From NCBI RefSeq assembly GCF_010907035.1, contig NZ_QUMK01000061.1, positions 1-35,537 on the forward strand: a stretch of DNA of 35,537 nt, written 5' to 3'. The translations under genes were made by a program, and so were the position numbers. Each line of letters opens with the position of its first letter. The stretch's first letter is position 1. This document shows positions 7,982 to 24,320 of this stretch, in pieces. The stretch comes from Rhodopseudomonas sp. BR0M22. Its GTDB lineage: Bacteria > Pseudomonadota > Alphaproteobacteria > Rhizobiales > Xanthobacteraceae. The notes beneath the pieces are model-generated. The model saw only the letters and a list, made by a program, of their open reading frames with translations. It had not been told where the DNA came from and did not search any database.

Positions 7982-9760
7982 TTGTCCAGCAATGCCAGCT
8001 CCTCCTCGGCAGCATGGCGACCAATTGATGCCCCATCAACATCGTGCGCCGCGGAGCCGGGAAGCGGAGGGGACACAACGCGGCCTTGGCAGATCGATCG
8101 CGAGCGGCTAATCGACGGGACCCTTTTTCAACGGACGGAATCCGAACCCTTGCGCACGCCGCTGCTGTTGATCCCGATCTCGTTGGCCATGATCTTTGGT
8201 GTGTGGTGGTGGATCGCCACGCCGATTACGCTCGAACGCGCGCCGATCGAGGCCGGGTCGAAACTGGAATGCGTGTCCTACGCGCCGTTCCGCGGCACGC
8301 AGACGCCGCTCGACCCGACCACCCATATCGACGCCGAGCAGATTGCGCAGGACATGGCGCAGCTCGCCAAGATTTCGAATTGCGTCCGGACCTATTCGAT
8401 CGACAATGGCCTCGATCAGCTTCCGCCGCTCGCCGCCAAGGTCGGGCTGAAAGTGCTGCAGGGCATCTGGCTGTCCAACGATCGTTCCAAGAATCTGGCG
8501 CAGATCGCCACCGCGGTCGGTCTCGTCAAGGCCTATCCTGACGTCATCACCGGACTGGTGGTCGGTAACGAAGTGCTGCTGCGCGGCGAGATGACAACGG
8601 CGGATCTGGCCGCGACCATCCGGCTGGTGAAGGCGCAGGCCAAGGTGCCTGTCACCTACGCCGACGTGTGGGAATACTGGCTGCGTAACCGCGAGATCTA
8701 CGACGCAGTCGATTTCGTGACGATTCACATTCTGCCGTATTGGGAGGACATGCCGGTCCGCGCCCGCTACGCCGCCAACCACGTCGATGCGATCCGCAAG
8801 CAGGTCGCGGTCGCGTTCCCAGGCAAGGAAATCCTGATCGGCGAAACCGGGTGGCCCAGCGCCGGCCGGATGCGGGAAGGCGCGCTGCCGTCGCGCGCCA
8901 ATCAGGCGCGGGTGGTGTCGGAGATCCTGACCCTGGCCAAGCGGGAACACTTCCGGGTCAATCTGATCGAGGCTTACGACCAGCCTTGGAAGCGCAACCT
9001 CGAAGGCACTGTCGGTGGCTACTGGGGCCTGATCGACGCCGATAGCCGCGCGTTGAAGTATCCGGCCGGCGAGCCGATCAGCAATTTCCCGCAATGGAAG
9101 ATCGCTGCCGGCGCCGGCATGGCTTTGAGCATCGTGGTGTTCTTGACCGCAATTCTGACGCTGCGTCGCCGTCCATGGTCGCCGCGTCTGGTGGCGTGGC
9201 TGGCGGTCGGCACCTCTGCAACGGTGGCGGGCATTCTTCTCGGCGTGGCCGTCGACAAGCTTTTGGTCGAAAGCTACGGCGTCGGGCGCTGGGCGCAGTG
9301 GAGCCTGCTGCTGGCGAGCGGCGTCGTGACACCGATCCTCGCCGCTCATGCGCTGATGTCGGGACGTTCGATTCCGACGTTCCTCGACCTATTCGGGCCG
9401 CGCGAAGATCGGACGCGATCGCTGGCGGCCTGGGCGCTCGGTCTGGCGGCGGCGGTGACGGTGCTGATCGGCGCAGAGACCGCGCTCGGATTCACCTTCG
9501 ATCCGCGCTATCGGGATTTCCCGTTCGCGGCGCTGACGATGGCGGTGGTGCCGTTGTTCATGCTGATGCTGGTCAACCGTCCGCAGCAGGGCGCCCGGCC
9601 GATCGCCGAAGCGTCGTTCGCCGGGCTGATCGCGGCATGTGCGCTCTACACGGTGTTCAACGAAGGGCCAAAGAACTGGCAGTCGCTGTGGACCTGCGCG
9701 GTCTATGCGATGCTGGCGCTCACGCTGTGGCGGGCGCGGGTCGCGCAAACCCCAAAATAA
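7982..9760 (+). CDS. ndvC: NdvC-like membrane GH17 glucan transglycosylase/branching protein
   Basis: A 592-residue frame. The first available start in frame is TTG at 7982; a shorter start at TTG 8150, next to the first membrane helix (about residues 60-80), is equally possible. One N-terminal helix is followed by a GH17-type domain (about 90-370) with the two catalytic glutamates in VVGNEVLLRG and GETGWPSAG. Six or seven hydrophobic helices follow to the C-terminus (about 375-590). There is no GT2 domain. The layout fits NdvC of Bradyrhizobium japonicum, a membrane protein related to beta-1,3-glucanases and needed for beta-1,6 linkages in cyclic beta-(1,3),(1,6)-glucan. The GH17 domain resembles the one in the NdvB-like neighbour throughout. 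The last 41 bp overlap the convergent membrane-protein gene. Confidence 0.8.
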   Translation: MSSNASSSSAAWRPIDAPSTSCAAEPGSGGDTTRPWQIDRERLIDGTLFQRTESEPLRTPLLLIPISLAMIFGVWWWIATPITLERAPIEAGSKLECVSYAPFRGTQTPLDPTTHIDAEQIAQDMAQLAKISNCVRTYSIDNGLDQLPPLAAKVGLKVLQGIWLSNDRSKNLAQIATAVGLVKAYPDVITGLVVGNEVLLRGEMTTADLAATIRLVKAQAKVPVTYADVWEYWLRNREIYDAVDFVTIHILPYWEDMPVRARYAANHVDAIRKQVAVAFPGKEILIGETGWPSAGRMREGALPSRANQARVVSEILTLAKREHFRVNLIEAYDQPWKRNLEGTVGGYWGLIDADSRALKYPAGEPISNFPQWKIAAGAGMALSIVVFLTAILTLRRRPWSPRLVAWLAVGTSATVAGILLGVAVDKLLVESYGVGRWAQWSLLLASGVVTPILAAHALMSGRSIPTFLDLFGPREDRTRSLAAWALGLAAAVTVLIGAETALGFTFDPRYRDFPFAALTMAVVPLFMLMLVNRPQQGARPIAEASFAGLIAACALYTVFNEGPKNWQSLWTCAVYAMLALTLWRARVAQTPK

Positions 9761-16113: not shown

Positions 16114-16134
16114 TCCGTCGATCTGCCGGGGGCG

Positions 16135-17121
16135 TCACTCGGCCGGAACGCTGGCCGACATCGGCACGCCGCGCGTTCTGGTCGATGAGCGCTTCTTCCT
16201 GCCCGACCGACTCTCCTCCATCTGCGCCGCTGTGGCGCGGAGCTGTTCCCGCAGCCACTGATTGGTCGTGTCGCTTTCGGCTGTCGCGTGCCAATAGAGA
16301 TAATTGACGTGAGGCGTGATCGGGAACGGGCAGGGCAGGCACTGCAGCAAATCCGGATCACCCAGCACGGAATCGACGCTCTCGGCCGCCGTGAGCAGCA
16401 TGTTGCTGCGGCTGACGACGTGGCAGGCGGTGGCAAAATTCTGGCAGGTCAGCCGAACGGTGCGCTTGAGACCGAGCCGCTGAAACTGGAAGTCCTCGAA
16501 CGAGAGGCCACTGCGGCGCGAGGTGACGCAGACATGCTCCAGCCGCAGGTAGGTCTTCGCATCGAGCCGCTTGCGCAAATCGGGATGATCGCGCCTGGCA
16601 AAGACCGCGATGTCTTCACTGAGGACTTGCACACGCCGCACTTCCGCTGAAATCGGCAACAGCGTGTCGATCGCGACATCGAGCGTGCCGGCCGCAAGCT
16701 CCCGCTCCAAATTGGCGCGCTCACTACGCACCGTAGCTATCTCAACCAGCGGCGCTACCGTGCTGATCCGGTTGATCAGTGCGCTGACGAGCGGCGCTTC
16801 GAGATTGTTGCGTAGCCCGATCACGAAGCGCTTGGGCGTCCGCGCCGGATCAAACCTGCTCGCATGCGTCAGCGTCGTCTCGAGCCCGTTGAGAGCTTGG
16901 CGCACCGTCGTGATGATCTGACGCGCCAGAGGCGTCGGCGTCATCTCGTGGTTGCTGCGCACGAACAATGGATCGTCGAACATCGCACGCAGGCGCCCCA
17001 ATGCGTGACTGACTGCCGGCTGGGTCAAGTTCAGGCGAAAACACGCACGACCTACACCGCCCTCGGTGTAGATCGCGTCGAACACAACGAACAAGTTCAG
17101 ATCGACGTTTCGTATATGCAT
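16135..17121 (-). CDS. LysR-family transcriptional regulator of the sugar ABC cassette
   Basis: A 328-residue protein. The N-terminal winged helix-turn-helix reads GGVGRACFRLNLTQPAVSHA, then LGRLRAMFDDPLFVRS, typical of LysR regulators of the NodD/LinR-like subgroup (start MHIRNVDLNLFVVFDAI). The effector domain (about residues 92-300) has the usual two-lobe pattern, with a class-typical DPARTPKRFVIGL opening. The last 30 residues are basic and probably disordered. The gene is divergent from the five-gene ABC operon, 90 bp apart, the usual arrangement for a regulator of the adjacent operon with a sugar-derived effector. Its ATG overlaps one ATGCAT element of the intergenic region. It converges on the DUF502 gene 22 bp away. 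Confidence 0.9.
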   Translation of the reverse strand: MHIRNVDLNLFVVFDAIYTEGGVGRACFRLNLTQPAVSHALGRLRAMFDDPLFVRSNHEMTPTPLARQIITTVRQALNGLETTLTHASRFDPARTPKRFVIGLRNNLEAPLVSALINRISTVAPLVEIATVRSERANLERELAAGTLDVAIDTLLPISAEVRRVQVLSEDIAVFARRDHPDLRKRLDAKTYLRLEHVCVTSRRSGLSFEDFQFQRLGLKRTVRLTCQNFATACHVVSRSNMLLTAAESVDSVLGDPDLLQCLPCPFPITPHVNYLYWHATAESDTTNQWLREQLRATAAQMEESRSGRKKRSSTRTRGVPMSASVPAE

Positions 17122-17153
17122 GAAATAGATCGATCCATATCCGCCGAATGCAT

Positions 17154-17183
17154 TTGACGAATACTAGCGGGCACTCTTAGATT
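17154..17183 (+). promoter_or_regulatory. Putative sigma-70-type promoter of the sugar ABC operon
   Basis: TTGACG (17154-17159) and TAGATT (17178-17183) are separated by 18 bp, about 30 bp before the permease start codon. The -35 box is a five-of-six match, the -10 a weaker match. Two ATGCAT hexamers (17116-17121 and 17148-17153) lie 32 bp apart just upstream, on one helical face, and could be part of the LysR operator. Confidence 0.45.
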
Positions 17184-17211
17184 TGCAAAAAAATAAAACT
17201 GGAAGGAAACG

Positions 17212-18237
17212 ATGAGCGTGCAATCACCCTCGCGCGGTGTTGCTGCAACTGCAGCATCGTCGCGATTTGGCGCGGCGCTGGGGAAGCCGAGCCAGGAGCA
17301 GATCGTGCTCCTCATCACGATTTCACTTCTGGTGGTGTTCGGTCTGACCCTCAACGGATTTGCGTCCGTTTCCAATCTTCTGAATTTGCTGCGCAGCATT
17401 TCGATCCTCGGCGTGCTGGGCCTCGGCATGGGACTGATCGTGATCAGCCGCGGTATCGACCTGTCCGAAGTCGCCATCATGGCCGGCTCATGGGCGATCG
17501 CGCTGATCTACATGCAGAACGGCATGTCGGTGGGCGCCGGTGTGCTGCTGGCGCTCGGCATTGCGGTGCTGATCGGCATCGTCAACGGCGTGATGGTCGC
17601 GTTCGTCGAGGCGCCGGCGCTGTTCGTGACGCTGGCCGCGGGCTTCGTGATCTACGGGCTGGCGTTCTGGATTGCCCCGGCGTGGGTGGTCTATGCGCCG
17701 AAGGATCTGCCGAGCTTGATGTATTTCGGCGCCGGGCGGCTGTTCGGCATTCCTGTTCCGATTTTGGTGTTCGCAGTCGCAGCGATCGCAATGCACTTCT
17801 TCCTGTCGCGAACGTCGATCGGACGCTTCATCTATGCGCAAGGCGACAATCCCGAGGCGGCACGGTTGACCGGCATTCCGCTGCGGCCGCTGATCGTTCT
17901 GGAGCACGTGCTCGTCGCCTTGCTCGCCTGGATTGCGGGATTGGTCTGGATAGGCACCACCGGCAGCATGCAGATGGCGATCACCCAGGGCACGATGATT
18001 TTCGACGTCGTTCTGGTCGTGGTGATCGGCGGCATCAGCCTGGTCGGCGGCCGCGGCAGCGTGTTCAGCGTCGTGGTCGGCTGCGTGCTGATCGGCACGC
18101 TGCTCAACGCGTTCACCATCATGGACGTCAACAGCGAAGTTCAGAACATCATCAAGGGCGTCGTGCTTCTGGTGTCGATCGTGCTCGACAACTGGCTGCA
18201 TCCCCGAGACGAGGAGACCGCGCGCCAGGGCGACTGA
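17212..18237 (+). CDS. Ribose-type sugar ABC transporter permease
   Basis: A 341-residue membrane protein of the RbsC/branched BPD_transp_2 family. A polar N-terminus of about 30 residues is followed by eight to ten hydrophobic helices. Family blocks are SISILGVLGLGMGLIVISRG, IDLSEVAIMAGSWAIAL (the conserved GxIDLSVG-like turn), ARLTGIPLRPLIVLEHVLVA, and the GGISLVGGRGSVFSVVVGC region that contacts the ATPase. It has an excellent Shine-Dalgarno (ggaaggaaacg). It is the first gene of the operon and presumably pairs with the second permease, which carries the lactonase fusion, to form a heterodimeric channel. It is 72 bp ahead of the binding-protein gene. Confidence 0.92.
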   Translation: MSVQSPSRGVAATAASSRFGAALGKPSQEQIVLLITISLLVVFGLTLNGFASVSNLLNLLRSISILGVLGLGMGLIVISRGIDLSEVAIMAGSWAIALIYMQNGMSVGAGVLLALGIAVLIGIVNGVMVAFVEAPALFVTLAAGFVIYGLAFWIAPAWVVYAPKDLPSLMYFGAGRLFGIPVPILVFAVAAIAMHFFLSRTSIGRFIYAQGDNPEAARLTGIPLRPLIVLEHVLVALLAWIAGLVWIGTTGSMQMAITQGTMIFDVVLVVVIGGISLVGGRGSVFSVVVGCVLIGTLLNAFTIMDVNSEVQNIIKGVVLLVSIVLDNWLHPRDEETARQGD

Positions 18238-18309
18238 CCGACGAGGCGGCGCCGCCGACGATCGAGAGACGTTTCAATCAAATCAAAATAATAACATCTG
18301 GAGGAGACG

Positions 18310-19335
18310 ATGAAGACAACCAAGGTCTGGACGATCCTGGTCGCCGGGGCCGTGTTGGCGGCGCTACCGTTTGCGGCGTCGGCGCAAGACGAAGGCACCA
18401 AGGCCGGCCGCGAGCTGCGCGCAGCCTACGACAAGGCGCTGCAGGGCAAGACGATCGCCTATCTGCCGATCGCGCTGGGCGTGCCTCTCGCGGACGAATG
18501 GGGCCGCGTGGTGCAGGAAGAGGCGGAGTGGCGCGGCATGAAATACATCGTCCGCGATCCCAACAACAATCCCTCCGCGATGCAGCAGGCGCTGACCGCC
18601 CTGGTCGATCAGAAGCCCGACGTGCTGATCGTGCAGAACCCGAGCGTGACGCTGCTGATGAAGGACCTGAAGCGTGCCGAGGCTCAGGGCACTCATGTGA
18701 TCCAGGTCAACATGTCGTCGAACTACAAGTCGGGCGCCTTCGTCGGCGTCGACTGGCGGGAGATCGGCCGAATGCTGGCGACAGAAGTCGTCAAGGCATG
18801 CGGCACAGGCTCGGGCAAGTCCGGCAAGGTTCAGATCGTGCAGGGCGAGTTGGCGGCCGCAGCCAGCGTCGACCAAGTCGGTGCCATCATGGAGGTCCTG
18901 AACAAAGACCCCAACATCAAGGTGGTGTCCAACCAGGCGGCGAATTGGGATGCAAACACTGCGCTGAACATCACCGCCACGGTAATTCAGCAGCACCCCG
19001 ATCTCTGCGCCTCGATTGGTTTCTGGGGCATCATGGAGTCGGGCGCCGCCCAGGCGATCCGCAACGCCGGCAAGATCGACGATGTGAAAGTCTTCGCTTC
19101 GGGGGAGGGCTCGCAGCTCGATTGCGATCAGGTGTCGTCCGGGAATTTCAGCAAGTTCCTCAGCTACAAGGCGACGGAGCAAGGTCACGATCTGATGTTC
19201 GCGGCGGAAACGCTGTTGATGCTCAGCGACAAGCCGGGCAGCCAAAAGCTCGCCTACTACACGCGGCCGGTCTGGATCGACAAGACCAACGCCTCGGTCG
19301 CCGGAACCTGCTTTGCGCTGCCCAAGAAGAACTAG
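18310..19335 (+). CDS. Periplasmic sugar-binding protein of the ABC operon
   Basis: A 341-residue protein with a classic signal peptide (MKTTKVWTILVAGAVLAALP, cleavage after ASA about residue 25). The mature part has the type-1 periplasmic-binding fold of ribose/galactose-binding proteins: KTIAYLPIALGVPLADEWGR, then VQEEAEWRGMKYIVRDPNNN, PDVLIVQNPSV, and the second-lobe KVQIVQGELAAAASVDQVGA. The Cys residues (CGTGSG, DLCAS, LDCDQ, GTCFAL) are numerous for this family and could form periplasmic disulfides. A strong Shine-Dalgarno (ggaggagacg) fits its higher expected expression, as does a stable hairpin just after the stop. The ligand cannot be inferred from sequence; a pentose, hexose or aldonolactone would fit the neighbours. 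Confidence 0.9.
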   Translation: MKTTKVWTILVAGAVLAALPFAASAQDEGTKAGRELRAAYDKALQGKTIAYLPIALGVPLADEWGRVVQEEAEWRGMKYIVRDPNNNPSAMQQALTALVDQKPDVLIVQNPSVTLLMKDLKRAEAQGTHVIQVNMSSNYKSGAFVGVDWREIGRMLATEVVKACGTGSGKSGKVQIVQGELAAAASVDQVGAIMEVLNKDPNIKVVSNQAANWDANTALNITATVIQQHPDLCASIGFWGIMESGAAQAIRNAGKIDDVKVFASGEGSQLDCDQVSSGNFSKFLSYKATEQGHDLMFAAETLLMLSDKPGSQKLAYYTRPVWIDKTNASVAGTCFALPKKN

Positions 19336-19347
19336 CCAGACGCGATG

Positions 19348-19374
19348 GCCGGTGCGGGGGCTGCCCGCGCCGGC
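19348..19374 (+). promoter_or_regulatory. Strong intercistronic stem-loop after the binding-protein gene
   Basis: GCCGGTGCGGG and CCCGCGCCGGC form an 11-bp stem (one G-T wobble) around a 5-nt loop, 12 bp after the stop codon. There is no T-run, so it is not an efficient intrinsic terminator. In ABC operons such hairpins after the binding-protein gene shield the upstream message from 3' exonucleases and raise binding-protein levels over permease; this is the likely role here. Confidence 0.7.
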
Positions 19375-19430
19375 TCGCCAATAATCAGAATCCGGGAGCC
19401 ACGGCGATCGGATCGTGGGAGTGATTGACG

Positions 19431-21581
19431 ATGTCGATGGCAGTTGATTCCTTTGCCGCGTCGGTGCGACGGTTTTCACCGCGTTTGTTGCTGTCCGAAC
19501 TGATGCTGAAGCAGTGGTTCGAGCCGGTCGTGCCATTCACGGTCATGATCGGGCTGTGGGCCTACTTCGCTCTGACCATTCCCGACTATGCCTCGGTTCA
19601 AAGCTCGGTATCGCTGCTCCGGCTGTTCGCCGAATTCGGCTTCGTGGCGCTCGCGATGGGGTTCTGCCTCGTCACGGGCGGTATCGATCTGTCGGTCGGG
19701 GCCATCTTCGCGCTTTGCAATTTCGCGGCGCTGTACTTCCTGCTGGTGCGCGAATGGCCGGTCGAAGCGGCCATCCCTGCCACGCTCGTGATCGGCGCGC
19801 TGCTCGGCAGCATCAACGGCTTCCTGATCGGCTTTCTCAAGACCCGACCGTTCCTCACAACCCTGGTGACACTGATCATCCTGCGTGCCTCGGTCAATCT
19901 GCTCAACACCCAATACGCGCAGGTCTTCGCGACCAATTCGGTCGAAAGCGACTCCTGGGATTTCATCGGCGGCGGCACCGTGCTGGGGATCCCGATCAAC
20001 GCGGCCACGCTGTTCGTGGTCTTGCTGATTTGCCATGTGTTCCTGTCGCGGTCGCGCTATGGCTGGCATCTGACCGCGATCGGCGCCAGCCGCAAGGCCG
20101 CGCGACACGCCGGCATTCGCGTTCGGCTGATGCTGTTCATGACCTACGTGCTGTCCGGCACGCTGTGCGCGGCGAGCGGCATTTTCTATGCCGCGCGTCA
20201 GGCGTCGACCGACTCGACAACGGGTGTCGGTTGGGAGTTTCAGGCGCTTACTGCCGTGGTTCTCGGAGGCGTCTCGCTGGCCGGCGGCAAGGGCACCGTC
20301 TGGCGGGCGATGATCGGCGCGGTGATCATCTTCCTCCTCATCAACGGTCTGGTCCGCATGGGGGTGCCGGGTTACGTGACCTCCGCCGTTACCGGCCTGA
20401 TCCTGCTGGTGGCTGTCGGCATCGACGTCAAATGGTCGAAGAACCGCGGCAAGGCGATCCAGAAGATCTACGTCAATCCGGCCTTCGTGCCGCTCGCCGC
20501 GGCGCCTGCGGTTCACGCAGGGTCGGGATCGCCTTATGCGCAGAACGACCGGCTGATCAATGCGCAGGGGATCGGCATCGATCAGGTCGAGGGGCCCGAA
20601 GACGTCATTCTCGATCGCCAGGGGCGGCTGTACGGCTCGACCCGTGACGGCAACGTGATCCGCTTCTCGGGGCCGAATTTCGAAACGCGGGAGGTGTTCG
20701 CGCATATCGGCGGCCGTCCCCTCGGGATGCAGTTCGATCGCGACGAGAACCTGATCGTGGCGGTCGCCGGCATGGGTGTTTACGGCGTGGCGCCGGACGG
20801 CCGCGTCTTCAAGGTCACCGACGAGACCAATCGCACCTGGTACAAGCTGAACGACGACAGCCGCTTGCGCATGGCCGACGATCTCGACATTGCGCCCGAC
20901 GGCAAGATCTATTTCAGCGACTGCACCACGCGCTACGAGATGACGACCAACACGCTCGACATTCTCGAAGGCCGACCGAACGGCCGCGTGGTGTGCTACG
21001 ACCCGGCGACCAAGACGACCCGGACGGTGATCAACCATTTCTACTTCCCGAACGGAATCTGCGTTTCCCACGACGGCCGATCGATCCTGATCGCCTCGAC
21101 CTCGCTGTGCAAAGTATTCCGCCACTGGATCGAGGGGCCGAAGAAGGGGCGCACGGAAGTGCTGATCGACGAGCTGCCCGGCAATCCCGACAACATCAAT
21201 CGGGCCTCGGACGGCACCTATTGGCTGGCGCTGGTAGGTATCCGCACGCCGACGTTCGATCTTGCGGCGCGCAAGCCCGGCTTTCGGCTGCGTATGGTGA
21301 AGCAGGTGCCGACCGACGAATGGCTGGCGCCGGCGCTCAATCATGGCTGCGTGCTGAAGTTCAACGAGAATGGCGAGGCGCTGGAGTCGTGGTGGGATCC
21401 GACCGGAATTTCGCACTCGACGCTGACCTCGATGCGCGAGCACCAGGGCTATCTGTACCTCGGAGGACTCGAGAACAACCGGATCGGGCGTATCAAGCTT
21501 GACGGTGTCGACGACAGTTGGACCGGTTACGACGCCTATTGGGGGGCGAAGAGCCGCGCGACGACGAAGGTGACGGGCTGA
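19431..21581 (+). CDS. Fusion of ribose-type ABC permease and SMP-30/strictosidine-synthase-like lactonase
   Basis: One uninterrupted frame of 716 residues. Residues about 20-345 are a second RbsC-type permease: GFVALAMGFCLVTGGIDLSV, KTRPFLTTLVTLIILRASVN, ARHAGIRVRLMLFMTYVLSG and GGVSLAGGKGTVWRAMIGAV, ending in the basic VKWSKNRGKAIQKI. A linker of about 40 residues leads to a six-bladed beta-propeller (about 385-705) with IDQVEGPEDVILDRQGRLYG, MADDLDIAPDGKIYFSD, NHFYFPNGICVSHDGRS and LPGNPDNINRASDGTYWLAL. The Glu in VEGPE, the Asn in FPNG and the Asn in PDN match the metal-site positions of SMP-30/gluconolactonase and related proteins. If the permease has an even number of helices with a cytoplasmic start, the lactonase lies in the cytoplasm at the channel exit. 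The ATG at 19431 follows gggag by 9 nt; the stop overlaps the next start by 1 nt. There is no frameshift or internal stop suggesting misassembly. Confidence 0.88.
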   Translation: MSMAVDSFAASVRRFSPRLLLSELMLKQWFEPVVPFTVMIGLWAYFALTIPDYASVQSSVSLLRLFAEFGFVALAMGFCLVTGGIDLSVGAIFALCNFAALYFLLVREWPVEAAIPATLVIGALLGSINGFLIGFLKTRPFLTTLVTLIILRASVNLLNTQYAQVFATNSVESDSWDFIGGGTVLGIPINAATLFVVLLICHVFLSRSRYGWHLTAIGASRKAARHAGIRVRLMLFMTYVLSGTLCAASGIFYAARQASTDSTTGVGWEFQALTAVVLGGVSLAGGKGTVWRAMIGAVIIFLLINGLVRMGVPGYVTSAVTGLILLVAVGIDVKWSKNRGKAIQKIYVNPAFVPLAAAPAVHAGSGSPYAQNDRLINAQGIGIDQVEGPEDVILDRQGRLYGSTRDGNVIRFSGPNFETREVFAHIGGRPLGMQFDRDENLIVAVAGMGVYGVAPDGRVFKVTDETNRTWYKLNDDSRLRMADDLDIAPDGKIYFSDCTTRYEMTTNTLDILEGRPNGRVVCYDPATKTTRTVINHFYFPNGICVSHDGRSILIASTSLCKVFRHWIEGPKKGRTEVLIDELPGNPDNINRASDGTYWLALVGIRTPTFDLAARKPGFRLRMVKQVPTDEWLAPALNHGCVLKFNENGEALESWWDPTGISHSTLTSMREHQGYLYLGGLENNRIGRIKLDGVDDSWTGYDAYWGAKSRATTKVTG

Positions 21582-22702
21582 TGGGATTCTTCGATCATCT
21601 GTTGCGCGATATCAGAAGCGTCATCGATCGGGACGGAGGGCAGGATGCTATCCCGCCGCTCGACGGCGCGATGAGTCCGAACGACCGGCTCGATACGGCT
21701 GTGGTCATTGGTGATCCGCTGCCCGGTGTCGATGACGTGATCGACGCCGGCGGCGGAGCCGTCTACGTCTCGGCCGGACGCCGCGTGCTGAAACTCAGCG
21801 GCACTGACTATGTGACCCGCACGATCATGGCGGAGTTCGACGGCGAGGCGGGCGGACTGGCGCTGCATCCTGACGGACGCCTTCTGGTCTGCGTTGCCGG
21901 TCGGGGGCTCGCGGCGATCGATCCGGCGCAGCCCGAACCTCGCTGGCTGAATGATGTCGGCGGGCGACCGCTTGTCGGATTGTTGTCGGTCACGGCGGCG
22001 CCCGACGGCCGCATCTTTGCCGTCGAAGGCAGCGTCGGCCGAAAACCCGACGAGTGGCGGCGCGACCTGATGGAGAAGCGATCCAACGGTCGCCTGATCA
22101 GTTGCGGAGCCGGGCTGGACGATCCGCAGGAAGTGCTGCGGGATCTGCCGTATTCTCACGGCGTGACCGTATCGCCGGACGGCGCCAGCCTGTGGTTGAC
22201 CGAGAGCTGGGCGCATCGGCTCAGCCGGTTCGCGCTCGGGCCGAGCGGGATCGGCTCACGCGAGGTGATCGCTGCCAACATGCCTGGCTATCCGGCTCGG
22301 CTGCATCCGGACGGCCGCGGTGGGCTGCTGCTCGCCGTGTTCGCGCGCCGGACTCACCTGATCGAGTTCGTGCTCAAGGAAGACGACTTCCGCAACGACA
22401 TGATGGCGTCGATGCCGCCCGACTATTGGGTGGCGCCTGCGCTCGCGGGTGGCAGCGATTGCCTCGAGCCGATGCAGATCGGCAGCGTCAAAGCGCTCGG
22501 GATTCAGAAACCTTGGGCGCCGCCTCGGTCTTACGGTCTGTTGGTGCATTTGGATGCCGAGGGCGAAGTGGCAGACAGTCTGCACAGCCGTGCCGGCGGT
22601 CGATTCCACGGCCTCACTGCGGCTTGCGCGACGCATTCCGGCGTGATCATCGCCGCGCGTGGCGCCGGATGCCTGCTGAACTACACGGGAGACCTGCGAT
22701 GA
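21581..22702 (+). CDS. Second SMP-30/strictosidine-synthase-like propeller protein
   Basis: A 373-residue soluble protein starting MGFFDHLLRDIRSVIDRDGG, with no signal peptide, so cytoplasmic. Repeated strands of a beta-propeller are visible: GGLALHPDGRLLVCVAGRGL, LLSVTAAPDGRIFAVEGSVG, LPYSHGVTVSPDGASLWLTE, and a C-terminal FHGLTAACATHSGVIIAARG. It resembles the lactonase half of the upstream fusion in layout but is clearly diverged; the blade that carries PDN in the fusion reads MPGYPARLHPDGRGGLLLAV, and FPNG is replaced by YSHG. Loss of both Asn positions suggests altered metal binding or a non-catalytic role. Its ATG overlaps the upstream stop (TGATG), and its TGA overlaps the next start (ATGA), so the three genes are translationally coupled. 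A lactonase with another specificity is the alternative. Confidence 0.82.
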   Translation: MGFFDHLLRDIRSVIDRDGGQDAIPPLDGAMSPNDRLDTAVVIGDPLPGVDDVIDAGGGAVYVSAGRRVLKLSGTDYVTRTIMAEFDGEAGGLALHPDGRLLVCVAGRGLAAIDPAQPEPRWLNDVGGRPLVGLLSVTAAPDGRIFAVEGSVGRKPDEWRRDLMEKRSNGRLISCGAGLDDPQEVLRDLPYSHGVTVSPDGASLWLTESWAHRLSRFALGPSGIGSREVIAANMPGYPARLHPDGRGGLLLAVFARRTHLIEFVLKEDDFRNDMMASMPPDYWVAPALAGGSDCLEPMQIGSVKALGIQKPWAPPRSYGLLVHLDAEGEVADSLHSRAGGRFHGLTAACATHSGVIIAARGAGCLLNYTGDLR

Positions 22703-24249
22703 GTCATGGGGTGATGCAGGCGGCACGCGAGCCGAACCCGGGGGCGCCGAGCGCGTCCCGCGAGCCGGTGCTACGGATCCGAAGTGGCTCGAAGATCTAT
22801 GGTGGCGTTCATGCCATCGAGGGTGTCGATTTCGATCTTCATCCAGGAGAAGTGCACGCGTTGGTCGGTGAGAACGGCGCAGGCAAGTCGACGCTCTGCA
22901 AGGCGATAGCCGGCGCGATCCAACTGACCTCGGGCGAGTTCTTGCTGGACGGCAAGCCGACCAGGTTCGAGCAGCCGCGGGATGCTCTGAATGCCGGAAT
23001 TTGCATGGTCTACCAGGAGACCAGCCTGGTCCCGACGATGACGGCGGCGCAGAACATCGAACTCGGCAACGAGAAGCTGTTGACGCGGTTCCGCACCCTG
23101 AACATTCAGGCTCAGCAGCTTCTGCAGTCGCTCAACTTCCACGTCGATCCCGCGACACCCGTCGCGCTGCTCGGCACCGCCAAGAAGCAGATGGTGGAGA
23201 TCGCACGGGCAATCTATCACAAGGCGCGGATCATCATTTTCGACGAACCGACGGCGTCGCTCACGCCGGAGGAGATCGTCCACTTTTTTCATCTGGTACG
23301 CGATTTGCGCAGCCGCGGCGTTTCGATCGTCTACATATCTCATGCCTTGGAAGAATCGCTGCAGATTGCCGATCGCATCACCGTGCTGCGCGACGGCAAG
23401 CTGGTGATCACCGCGCCCGCCCGCGAATTCACCCGTGAAGCTCTGGTCCAGCATATGGTCGGGCGAGACGTGGCGCAGGTCGCCTACCGCAAACCCGAAA
23501 GGAGCCATCAGCGGCGCGAGAAAGTGCTGACGGTCGAAAACGTCACCATGGGGATGACGGTCAAGAACATGTCGTTCTCGGTCTACGCCGGGGAGGTGGT
23601 TGGTATCGCCGGCTTGATCGGATCGGGCCGGACCGAAATCGCCAAGATCATCTACGGAGCGTTGAAGCGCAATCTCGTCAACGGCGGCACCATAAGGCTG
23701 CGTGGCAAGCCGATCCGCTATCGCGTCCCACGCCAGGCGATCGATGACGGCATCGCCTACATTACCGAGGACCGCAAGGCCAACGGCTTCTTCGAAACCA
23801 TGGTAGTGGACGACAACGTCTATATCGGCAGCCTTGCCACCCGTCGGGGGTGGAGCTTCCTGTTGTCGCGGGCACGGCGCAGCAAGCTCGCGAGCTATTG
23901 GGTCGAGCGCCTCAAGATTAGCGCGCTGCAACGCAAGGCCAAGATTATCGAGCTCTCCGGCGGCAACCAGCAGAAGGTGGTGCTGGCAAAGACGCTGGTG
24001 CAGGATCCTTCGATCGTCATTTTCGACGAGCCGACCCGCGGCGTCGATGTCGGCACGATCCCGCACATCCACGGTGAAATCCGCCGGCTGGCCGACGAGG
24101 GCAAAGCAGTGGTGGTGATTTCGTCGTACCTGCCGGAAGTACTCGCCGTCTCGGATCGCATTCTCGTCGCGCGGACTGGCCGTATCGTGGCCGAGTTCGA
24201 CGCGGCCGATGCGACCCAGGACAAGATCCTCTACGCGGCGGTGCACTGA
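22699..24249 (+). CDS. RbsA-type sugar ABC transporter ATP-binding protein (two NBDs)
   Basis: A 516-residue cytoplasmic ATPase with tandem nucleotide-binding domains. NBD1 (about residues 25-255) has Walker A GENGAGKST, Walker B IIIFDEPTASLTPEE and a switch His in VYISHALEE, but its signature is LLGTAKKQ instead of an LSxGxxQ form. NBD2 (about 280-510) has the degenerate Walker A GLIGSGRTEI usual in RbsA/MglA proteins, an intact signature LSGGNQQK and Walker B IVIFDEPTRGVDVG. By head-to-tail pairing, one ATP site is complete (Walker A1 + signature 2) and the other is doubly degenerate. The start ATG overlaps the previous TGA by 4 nt. It is the last gene of the operon and should energise the heterodimeric permease. 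Confidence 0.93.
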   Translation: MSHGVMQAAREPNPGAPSASREPVLRIRSGSKIYGGVHAIEGVDFDLHPGEVHALVGENGAGKSTLCKAIAGAIQLTSGEFLLDGKPTRFEQPRDALNAGICMVYQETSLVPTMTAAQNIELGNEKLLTRFRTLNIQAQQLLQSLNFHVDPATPVALLGTAKKQMVEIARAIYHKARIIIFDEPTASLTPEEIVHFFHLVRDLRSRGVSIVYISHALEESLQIADRITVLRDGKLVITAPAREFTREALVQHMVGRDVAQVAYRKPERSHQRREKVLTVENVTMGMTVKNMSFSVYAGEVVGIAGLIGSGRTEIAKIIYGALKRNLVNGGTIRLRGKPIRYRVPRQAIDDGIAYITEDRKANGFFETMVVDDNVYIGSLATRRGWSFLLSRARRSKLASYWVERLKISALQRKAKIIELSGGNQQKVVLAKTLVQDPSIVIFDEPTRGVDVGTIPHIHGEIRRLADEGKAVVVISSYLPEVLAVSDRILVARTGRIVAEFDAADATQDKILYAAVH

Positions 24250-24320
24250 CGGAGCGACCCGGCGGTCGGCGTGCTCCGGCGGCAGGCGATCGGCAGGGCG
24301 CTGCGTCGTCGGCCAATGGC

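Follow-up and report, generated by a model that had tools for sequence, protein, structure and literature searches.

A gene of Rhodopseudomonas sp. BR0M22 encodes an RbsC-type permease and a six-bladed propeller in one protein, and 59 non-redundant full-length copies of this fusion (the one described here included) were found in alpha-, beta- and gammaproteobacteria. The gene lies in the window, the stretch of 35,537 nucleotides of contig NZ_QUMK01000061.1 that was analysed in this study, where it is the third of five genes on one strand. Our confidence is evenly balanced that these genes encode a CUT2-like ABC importer with a tethered strictosidine-synthase-like (SSL) hydrolase acting on the cargo at the inner mouth. 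The cassette and its regulator comprise the following features.

16135..17121, minus strand: LysR-type regulator, divergent from the cassette (Pfam HTH_1 and LysR_substrate)
17212..18237, plus strand: permease 1, RbsC/AraH type, without a propeller (Pfam BPD_transp_2, 1.6e-28)
18310..19335, plus strand: periplasmic binding protein (Pfam Peripla_BP_4, 5.4e-38)
19431..21581, plus strand: fusion protein of 716 aa, permease 2 and SSL-type propeller (reading frame and Pfam)
19527..20426, plus strand: permease domain of the fusion, aa 33-332, predicted TM1-TM10 (structure model, hydropathy, charge counts)
20427..20561, plus strand: linker of the fusion, aa 333-377, K/R-rich, without an extra membrane segment (hydropathy)
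20562..21545, plus strand: fused propeller, aa 378-705 (site alignment; fold match to SSL proteins and DFPase)
21581..22702, plus strand: free second propeller with a degenerate metal site (Pfam SGL, 1.2e-07)
22699..24249, plus strand: ATPase with two ABC domains (Pfam ABC_tran, two stretches)

The 716-codon frame of the fusion is open throughout; a TTG at 19425, two codons 5' of the start, is an alternative start. Pfam matches along the product are BPD_transp_2 (aa 61-328, 4.7e-36), SSL_N (368-412), SGL (430-603) and Str_synth (aa 483-569, 3.1e-23). The SGL match reached 46.3 bits (cut-off 26.3) and Str_synth scored higher than SGL. The permease half is of the RbsC type. The first-pass annotation, which had read a single frame joining an RbsC-type permease to an SMP-30/strictosidine-synthase-like domain, is borne out on both counts, the SSL affinity being the closer one. 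A second full-length copy (51% identity over aa 13-708) is encoded elsewhere in the genome. A 655-codon frame (19476-21443) lies antisense to the fusion gene on the minus strand, a frequent feature of GC-rich genes. Sequences of this kind are already known and carry the RefSeq name 'SMP-30/gluconolactonase/LRE family protein'. Among the titles and abstracts listed by searches of the open-licence PMC literature, none describes a permease-propeller fusion of this kind. A table row of PMC6710368 names the SMP-30 protein blr6437, with no architecture given in that row, and residue names sought in PMC6100192 were not found there.

All four domains (BPD_transp_2, Str_synth, SSL_N and SGL) were matched in each of the 59 non-redundant fusions, so that the search for co-linear homologues recovered both halves together. 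Full-length matches (E at most 1e-90, or recorded as full-length) were obtained in 11/61 relatives, 10/385 genomes of the class and 11/398 of the phylum; these samples overlap, and the window's genome is among them. Of 1664 plasmid records with a match, 15 reach a coverage of at least 80%; they belong to Alphaproteobacteria, Paraburkholderia and Pantoea. With the propeller alone as query, matches were found in 20/289 class genomes; all ten places at 49-100% identity lie in frames of 713-739 codons, while all 13 at 33-39% identity lie in frames of 358-412 codons. In a propeller tree with 35 fused, 17 free and 13 standalone sequences, each group forms one side of a branch (support 100/99 for the fused clade, 100/100 for the free and 99/99 for the standalone one). 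The standalone set consists of 12 of the 13 low-identity places (L131 had no usable frame) and the Pseudomonas plasmid protein L090. A single fusion event would be the simplest reading and, judged from these sequences, the fusion is a stable family and no oddity of the window's genome.

A scan of genome contigs yielded 48 loci, in 43 of which the fusion is unbroken. Contig ends cut it in two loci (L073, L084), and in three others (L078, L079, L083) the frame is broken at about aa 428, within the propeller and not between the domains. The break falls at 8281-8284 in each of the three, at the same GC-rich spot; one locus belongs to Bradyrhizobium oropedii and two to B. altum, and the contigs of both genomes have accessions of similar series. 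It is probably a systematic sequencing or assembly error, or it may be real or programmed; since none of the three breaks separates the domains, they leave the standing of the different readings unchanged. They are also what speaks for an artefact in which two genes were joined by a missed stop. Against this stand the non-redundant fused copies from independent assemblies, complete plasmids included, and the position of the breaks at one spot inside the propeller in these two genomes, so that such an artefact, scarcely credible for the window, is already refuted for the family. Homologues always encoded as two separate proteins, which had been named as a finding that would speak against the fusion, were not what the searches returned, given the ten close propellers in fused frames and the unbroken contig loci.

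The fusion was modelled with medium confidence (mean pLDDT 71.3, pTM 0.53), and the model shows ten long helices ahead of the propeller. Membrane sides were assigned on the basis of the ten-helix plan of RbsC and BtuC before K and R were counted, with helix ends taken from the model; K+R per residue was 0.151 on the side that bears the coupling loop and the C-terminus versus 0.028 on the other side. The largest 19-residue hydropathy mean in the linker region was 0.29 (aa 345-380). Foldseek with the fusion gave strictosidine synthases as best matches, followed by DFPase (TMt approx 0.70), with propellers only and no permease among the 50 best matches. From the ten helices and the positive charge on the C-terminal side we infer that the fused propeller is cytoplasmic, and this placement fits hydrolysis after entry. 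Of the two topologies considered by the first-pass annotation, the charge bias and the model thus point to the cytoplasmic C-terminus and away from the periplasmic one.

The conserved site of the fused propeller comprises E390, D483, D484, N541, D587 and N588. In the alignment, E390, N541, D587 and N588 are invariant in 59/59 non-redundant fusions, position 483 is D in 52 and N in seven, and position 387 is E in 44, D in 14 and A in one. Standalone SSL proteins keep the equivalents of E390, D484, N541 and D587 in 13/13 cases. N590 (35/35 fused, 1/13 standalone) and H662 (35/35 and 0/13) mark the fused clade and, as far as such patterns tell, may shape its substrate pocket. The subgroup domains Str_synth and SSL_N occur throughout the fused members, and the propeller is closer to hydrolases of the SSL type than to classical gluconolactonases. 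By alignment it retains the catalytic metal site (E, N/D, N, D), with metal binding putative. Free calcium is low in the cytoplasm, and the propeller may therefore need another metal. Retention of EGPE, FPNG and PDN at the metal positions, as proposed in the first-pass annotation, holds for the metal-type residues; within EGPE only the last glutamate (E390) is invariant. That description was also incomplete, as it missed the fourth site, D483, and the free propeller gene at 21581-22702.

By sequence, the best PDB relative of the fused propeller is rice TGW6 (8kg3), an ester hydrolase. Both share the GPE, PNG and PDN positions, E390 aligns with the GPE glutamate, and the TGW6 equivalents of the fusion site are E, N, N, D and N; TGW6, in contrast, is a standalone plant protein with N at the position of D483. 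A true strictosidine synthase was considered and rejected, because the catalytic glutamate is absent: the GEHFEQ glutamate of 6n5v, which we take to be catalytic Glu309, aligns with S663 in an ungapped stretch. The six-bladed fold is shared with DFPase, PON1 and SMP-30, and the catalytic calcium ligands of PON1 (E53, N168, N224, D269 and N270; PMC7766523) are of the same residue types as the fusion site. These proteins, however, match more weakly than SSL proteins, are not fused to a membrane domain and have N at the one ligand where 52/59 fusions have D. A natural fusion of a calcium-propeller lactonase to an unrelated domain exists in Deinococcus; according to PMC12362111, its ligands are Glu, Asn, Asn and Asp, the same types as in the fusion, it is active on 2-coumaranone, and the partner is a soluble Cu/Zn superoxide dismutase (SOD), whereas here it is a transporter permease.

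The free propeller differs at this very site. In 17/17 sequences the equivalent of E390 is D, that of N588 is R and that of D587 is A, G, S or C; the equivalent of 483 is T or L, and N541 is still N in 5/17. The alignment kept 58 rows, the row of L081 being left out as it was the fusion itself. The structure model (pLDDT 86.6, pTM 0.87) found strictosidine synthases as best foldseek matches, then PON1, xylonolactonase and RPA3624, and no signal peptide is visible in the protein. Fused propellers thus keep the calcium-site residues without exception whereas free ones have lost them, and the pair looks like an enzyme-like domain with a pseudoenzyme.

The remaining subunits resemble CUT2 or ribose-type importers (RbsABC, AraFGH, AlsABC). 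Both permeases score above the Pfam cut-off for BPD_transp_2, the ATPase has two ABC_tran stretches in one protein, and the Peripla_BP_4 binding protein is of the sugar type, with ribose/allose-type binding proteins as its PDB relatives and an N-terminus that, judged by eye, resembles a signal peptide. For the cargo, by contrast, the neighbouring genes of several relatives suggest something other than a monosaccharide. The cassette departs from that plan in having two unlike permeases, one of them propeller-fused, and a free propeller gene, and all NCBIfam equivalog scores of both permeases are far below the cut-off; the earlier remark that this is not the standard ribose-transporter layout was therefore correct. 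The start of the free propeller gene overlaps the fusion stop codon by one base, and the ATG of the ATPase gene (start read by eye) overlaps the stop of the free propeller gene, so these genes are probably translationally coupled. Among the loci retrieved, 82 span 11 kb or more and have an intact fusion frame; 80 of these, and 53/55 in the non-redundant set, carry permease 1, the binding protein, the fusion, the free propeller and the ATPase in this order on one strand; L065 and L092 each lack one cassette gene because the contig or record ends there. Judged by fusion matches, one genome (G400; contigs C25, C26 and C41) has five cassettes, of which three share a contig and lie less than about 18 kb apart in all. 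On the Shinella HZN7 plasmid pShin-09 (L213/H16), a binding-protein gene and a broken three-piece fusion match lie at the record end; no annotated fusion gene was found at this match, which may be a remnant cassette.

The window cassette and its LysR gene are located between DUF502 and recG, with glmS next to DUF502 on the left and mfd next to recG on the right (names from reading translations). Fifteen other genomes of the genus were compared: recG directly follows DUF502 in 13 of them; in G010 DUF502 is followed by genes for a LysR regulator and a phenolic acid decarboxylase, with recG further on; and in G007 the fetched stretch contains no recG. The DNA is 82-85% identical to six Bradyrhizobium loci, only over approximately 16.2-24.26 kb of the window, and LysR relatives (81-88%) occupy the same location in Bradyrhizobium cassettes, while the same-genus cassette L140 matches at about 67-69% in scattered pieces. 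On these comparisons the cassette appears to be an insertion, with horizontal gain as the best reading. The DUF502-recG junction (16114-24320 in the window) resembles a hot spot for insertions within the genus, carrying LysR and the cassette here and LysR and the decarboxylase in G010.

Gene neighbours were sought in the 55 non-redundant loci, and 29 neighbour proteins and one set of HMG-CoA reductase loci were typed with Pfam. No single pathway emerged from the recurrent neighbours in these loci, among them CoA-transferases, carboxymuconolactone-decarboxylase-like proteins, aldehyde dehydrogenases, zinc alcohol dehydrogenases and, near the cassettes of L142 and L148, a protein of 884-885 aa that combines an AMP-ligase with an enoyl-CoA hydratase. 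Genes linked in relatives also encode a CoA-ligase and acyl-CoA dehydrogenases. Within the window, no catabolic partner, an aldonate-pathway gene included, adjoins the cassette. A degradative HMG-CoA reductase is encoded directly upstream of the cassette in L089 and L158, and in L156 it lies one gene farther upstream, which makes 3/55 loci; a gene of the GntR-aminotransferase type is divergent from the reductase in all three, and an HMG-CoA lyase follows directly after the ATPase in L158. Seven other HMG-CoA reductase plasmid loci (7 of 37 records) have the same divergent gene; there the position following the reductase is occupied by a TRAP transporter five times and by a tripartite tricarboxylate permease once, and at the seventh locus no transporter is listed in it. 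At HMG-CoA reductase loci the cassette thus replaces acid transporters of known type in a setting of mevalonate degradation. TRAP systems transport mevalonate as the acid, and their loci therefore do not mark the lactone as the imported form.

HMG-CoA reductase is encoded in 19/385 class genomes, in 3/10 with a cassette versus 16/375 others (Fisher one-sided p = 0.0099), a weak support given that the test ignores relatedness and that the reductase adjoins the cassette in only one of the three (G400). In G263 it lies about 257 kb from the cassette. G341 was rejected as a linked case, the two being approximately 14.5 kb apart with pentapeptide, POR, CoA-transferase and UDP-sugar genes between. 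The full-length fusion tree (quick method, no bootstrap) implies at least two gains of the reductase link, and the cargo in the linked branches is most likely mevalonate or mevalonolactone. As the reductase is absent from the window's genome, cargo of this type cannot be assumed for the window, and the variety of neighbours is too great to show one shared chemistry; the cargo would differ between branches.

ABC importers are thought to release their cargo unchanged. In the importer proposed here, the cargo, a small lactone or ester, would be brought by the binding protein and driven by the double ATPase through a CUT2-like pair of different permeases, and the metal-dependent SSL-type hydrolase at the cytoplasmic end of one of them would open the ring or split the ester as the cargo emerges. 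The product, unable to leave, would enter catabolism. The free propeller, a presumed pseudoenzyme, would probably serve as scaffold or regulator, paired with either the fused propeller or the second permease. Topology, catalysis, cargo, coupling and the role of the free propeller are inferred parts of this model; its observed parts are the conserved fusion, the gene order of the cassette, the single clade of fused propellers and a site kept in these but lost in the free ones. In a bolder version, which we hold only tentatively, the system is a hydrolytic counterpart of group translocation: a neutral lactone is handed from permease to tethered lactonase in one act of transport and ring opening, two branches are mevalonolactone importers, and the free pseudo-propeller completes a two-propeller vestibule under the permease pair.

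Alternatively, the fused propeller might bind cargo at the inner mouth and gate the importer by trans-inhibition, with no turnover. A non-catalytic role is plausible, since the free propeller has lost its site and yet stays in the cassette wherever the DNA reaches; the complete metal-type site in every fused propeller, as in the standalone SSL proteins, argues against regulation only, and we regard this reading as rather doubtful, though it deserves weight. Import of an aldonolactone with hydrolysis to the aldonate, the trapping suggested by the first-pass annotation, would suit the CUT2-type subunits, the sugar-type binding protein, sugar-like neighbours in a Pantoea locus and an FGGY kinase near L145. 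It found no support in the SSL affinity of the propeller (TGW6 first by sequence, rather than gluconolactonases), the window neighbourhood free of aldonate-pathway genes, or the CoA-acid, alcohol/aldehyde and, in three loci, HMG-CoA reductase genes elsewhere, and is improbable. More improbable still is a propeller outside the membrane acting before uptake: calcium is available in the periplasm, and secretion or a lumenal location is common among SSL and PON proteins, but the coupling loop and the C-terminus fall on the same side of the ten predicted helices, positive charge is strong after TM10, the linker has neither membrane segment nor signal, and the free propeller lacks a visible signal peptide.

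If the tethered-hydrolase importer is true, a conserved family whose permease brings its own hydrolase, with a pseudoenzyme to match, would offer a simple system for testing vectorial transport coupled to chemistry, for which the HMG-CoA-reductase-linked members give a concrete candidate cargo. Many genes whose only name at present is 'SMP-30/gluconolactonase/LRE family protein' would then also gain a role in uptake.
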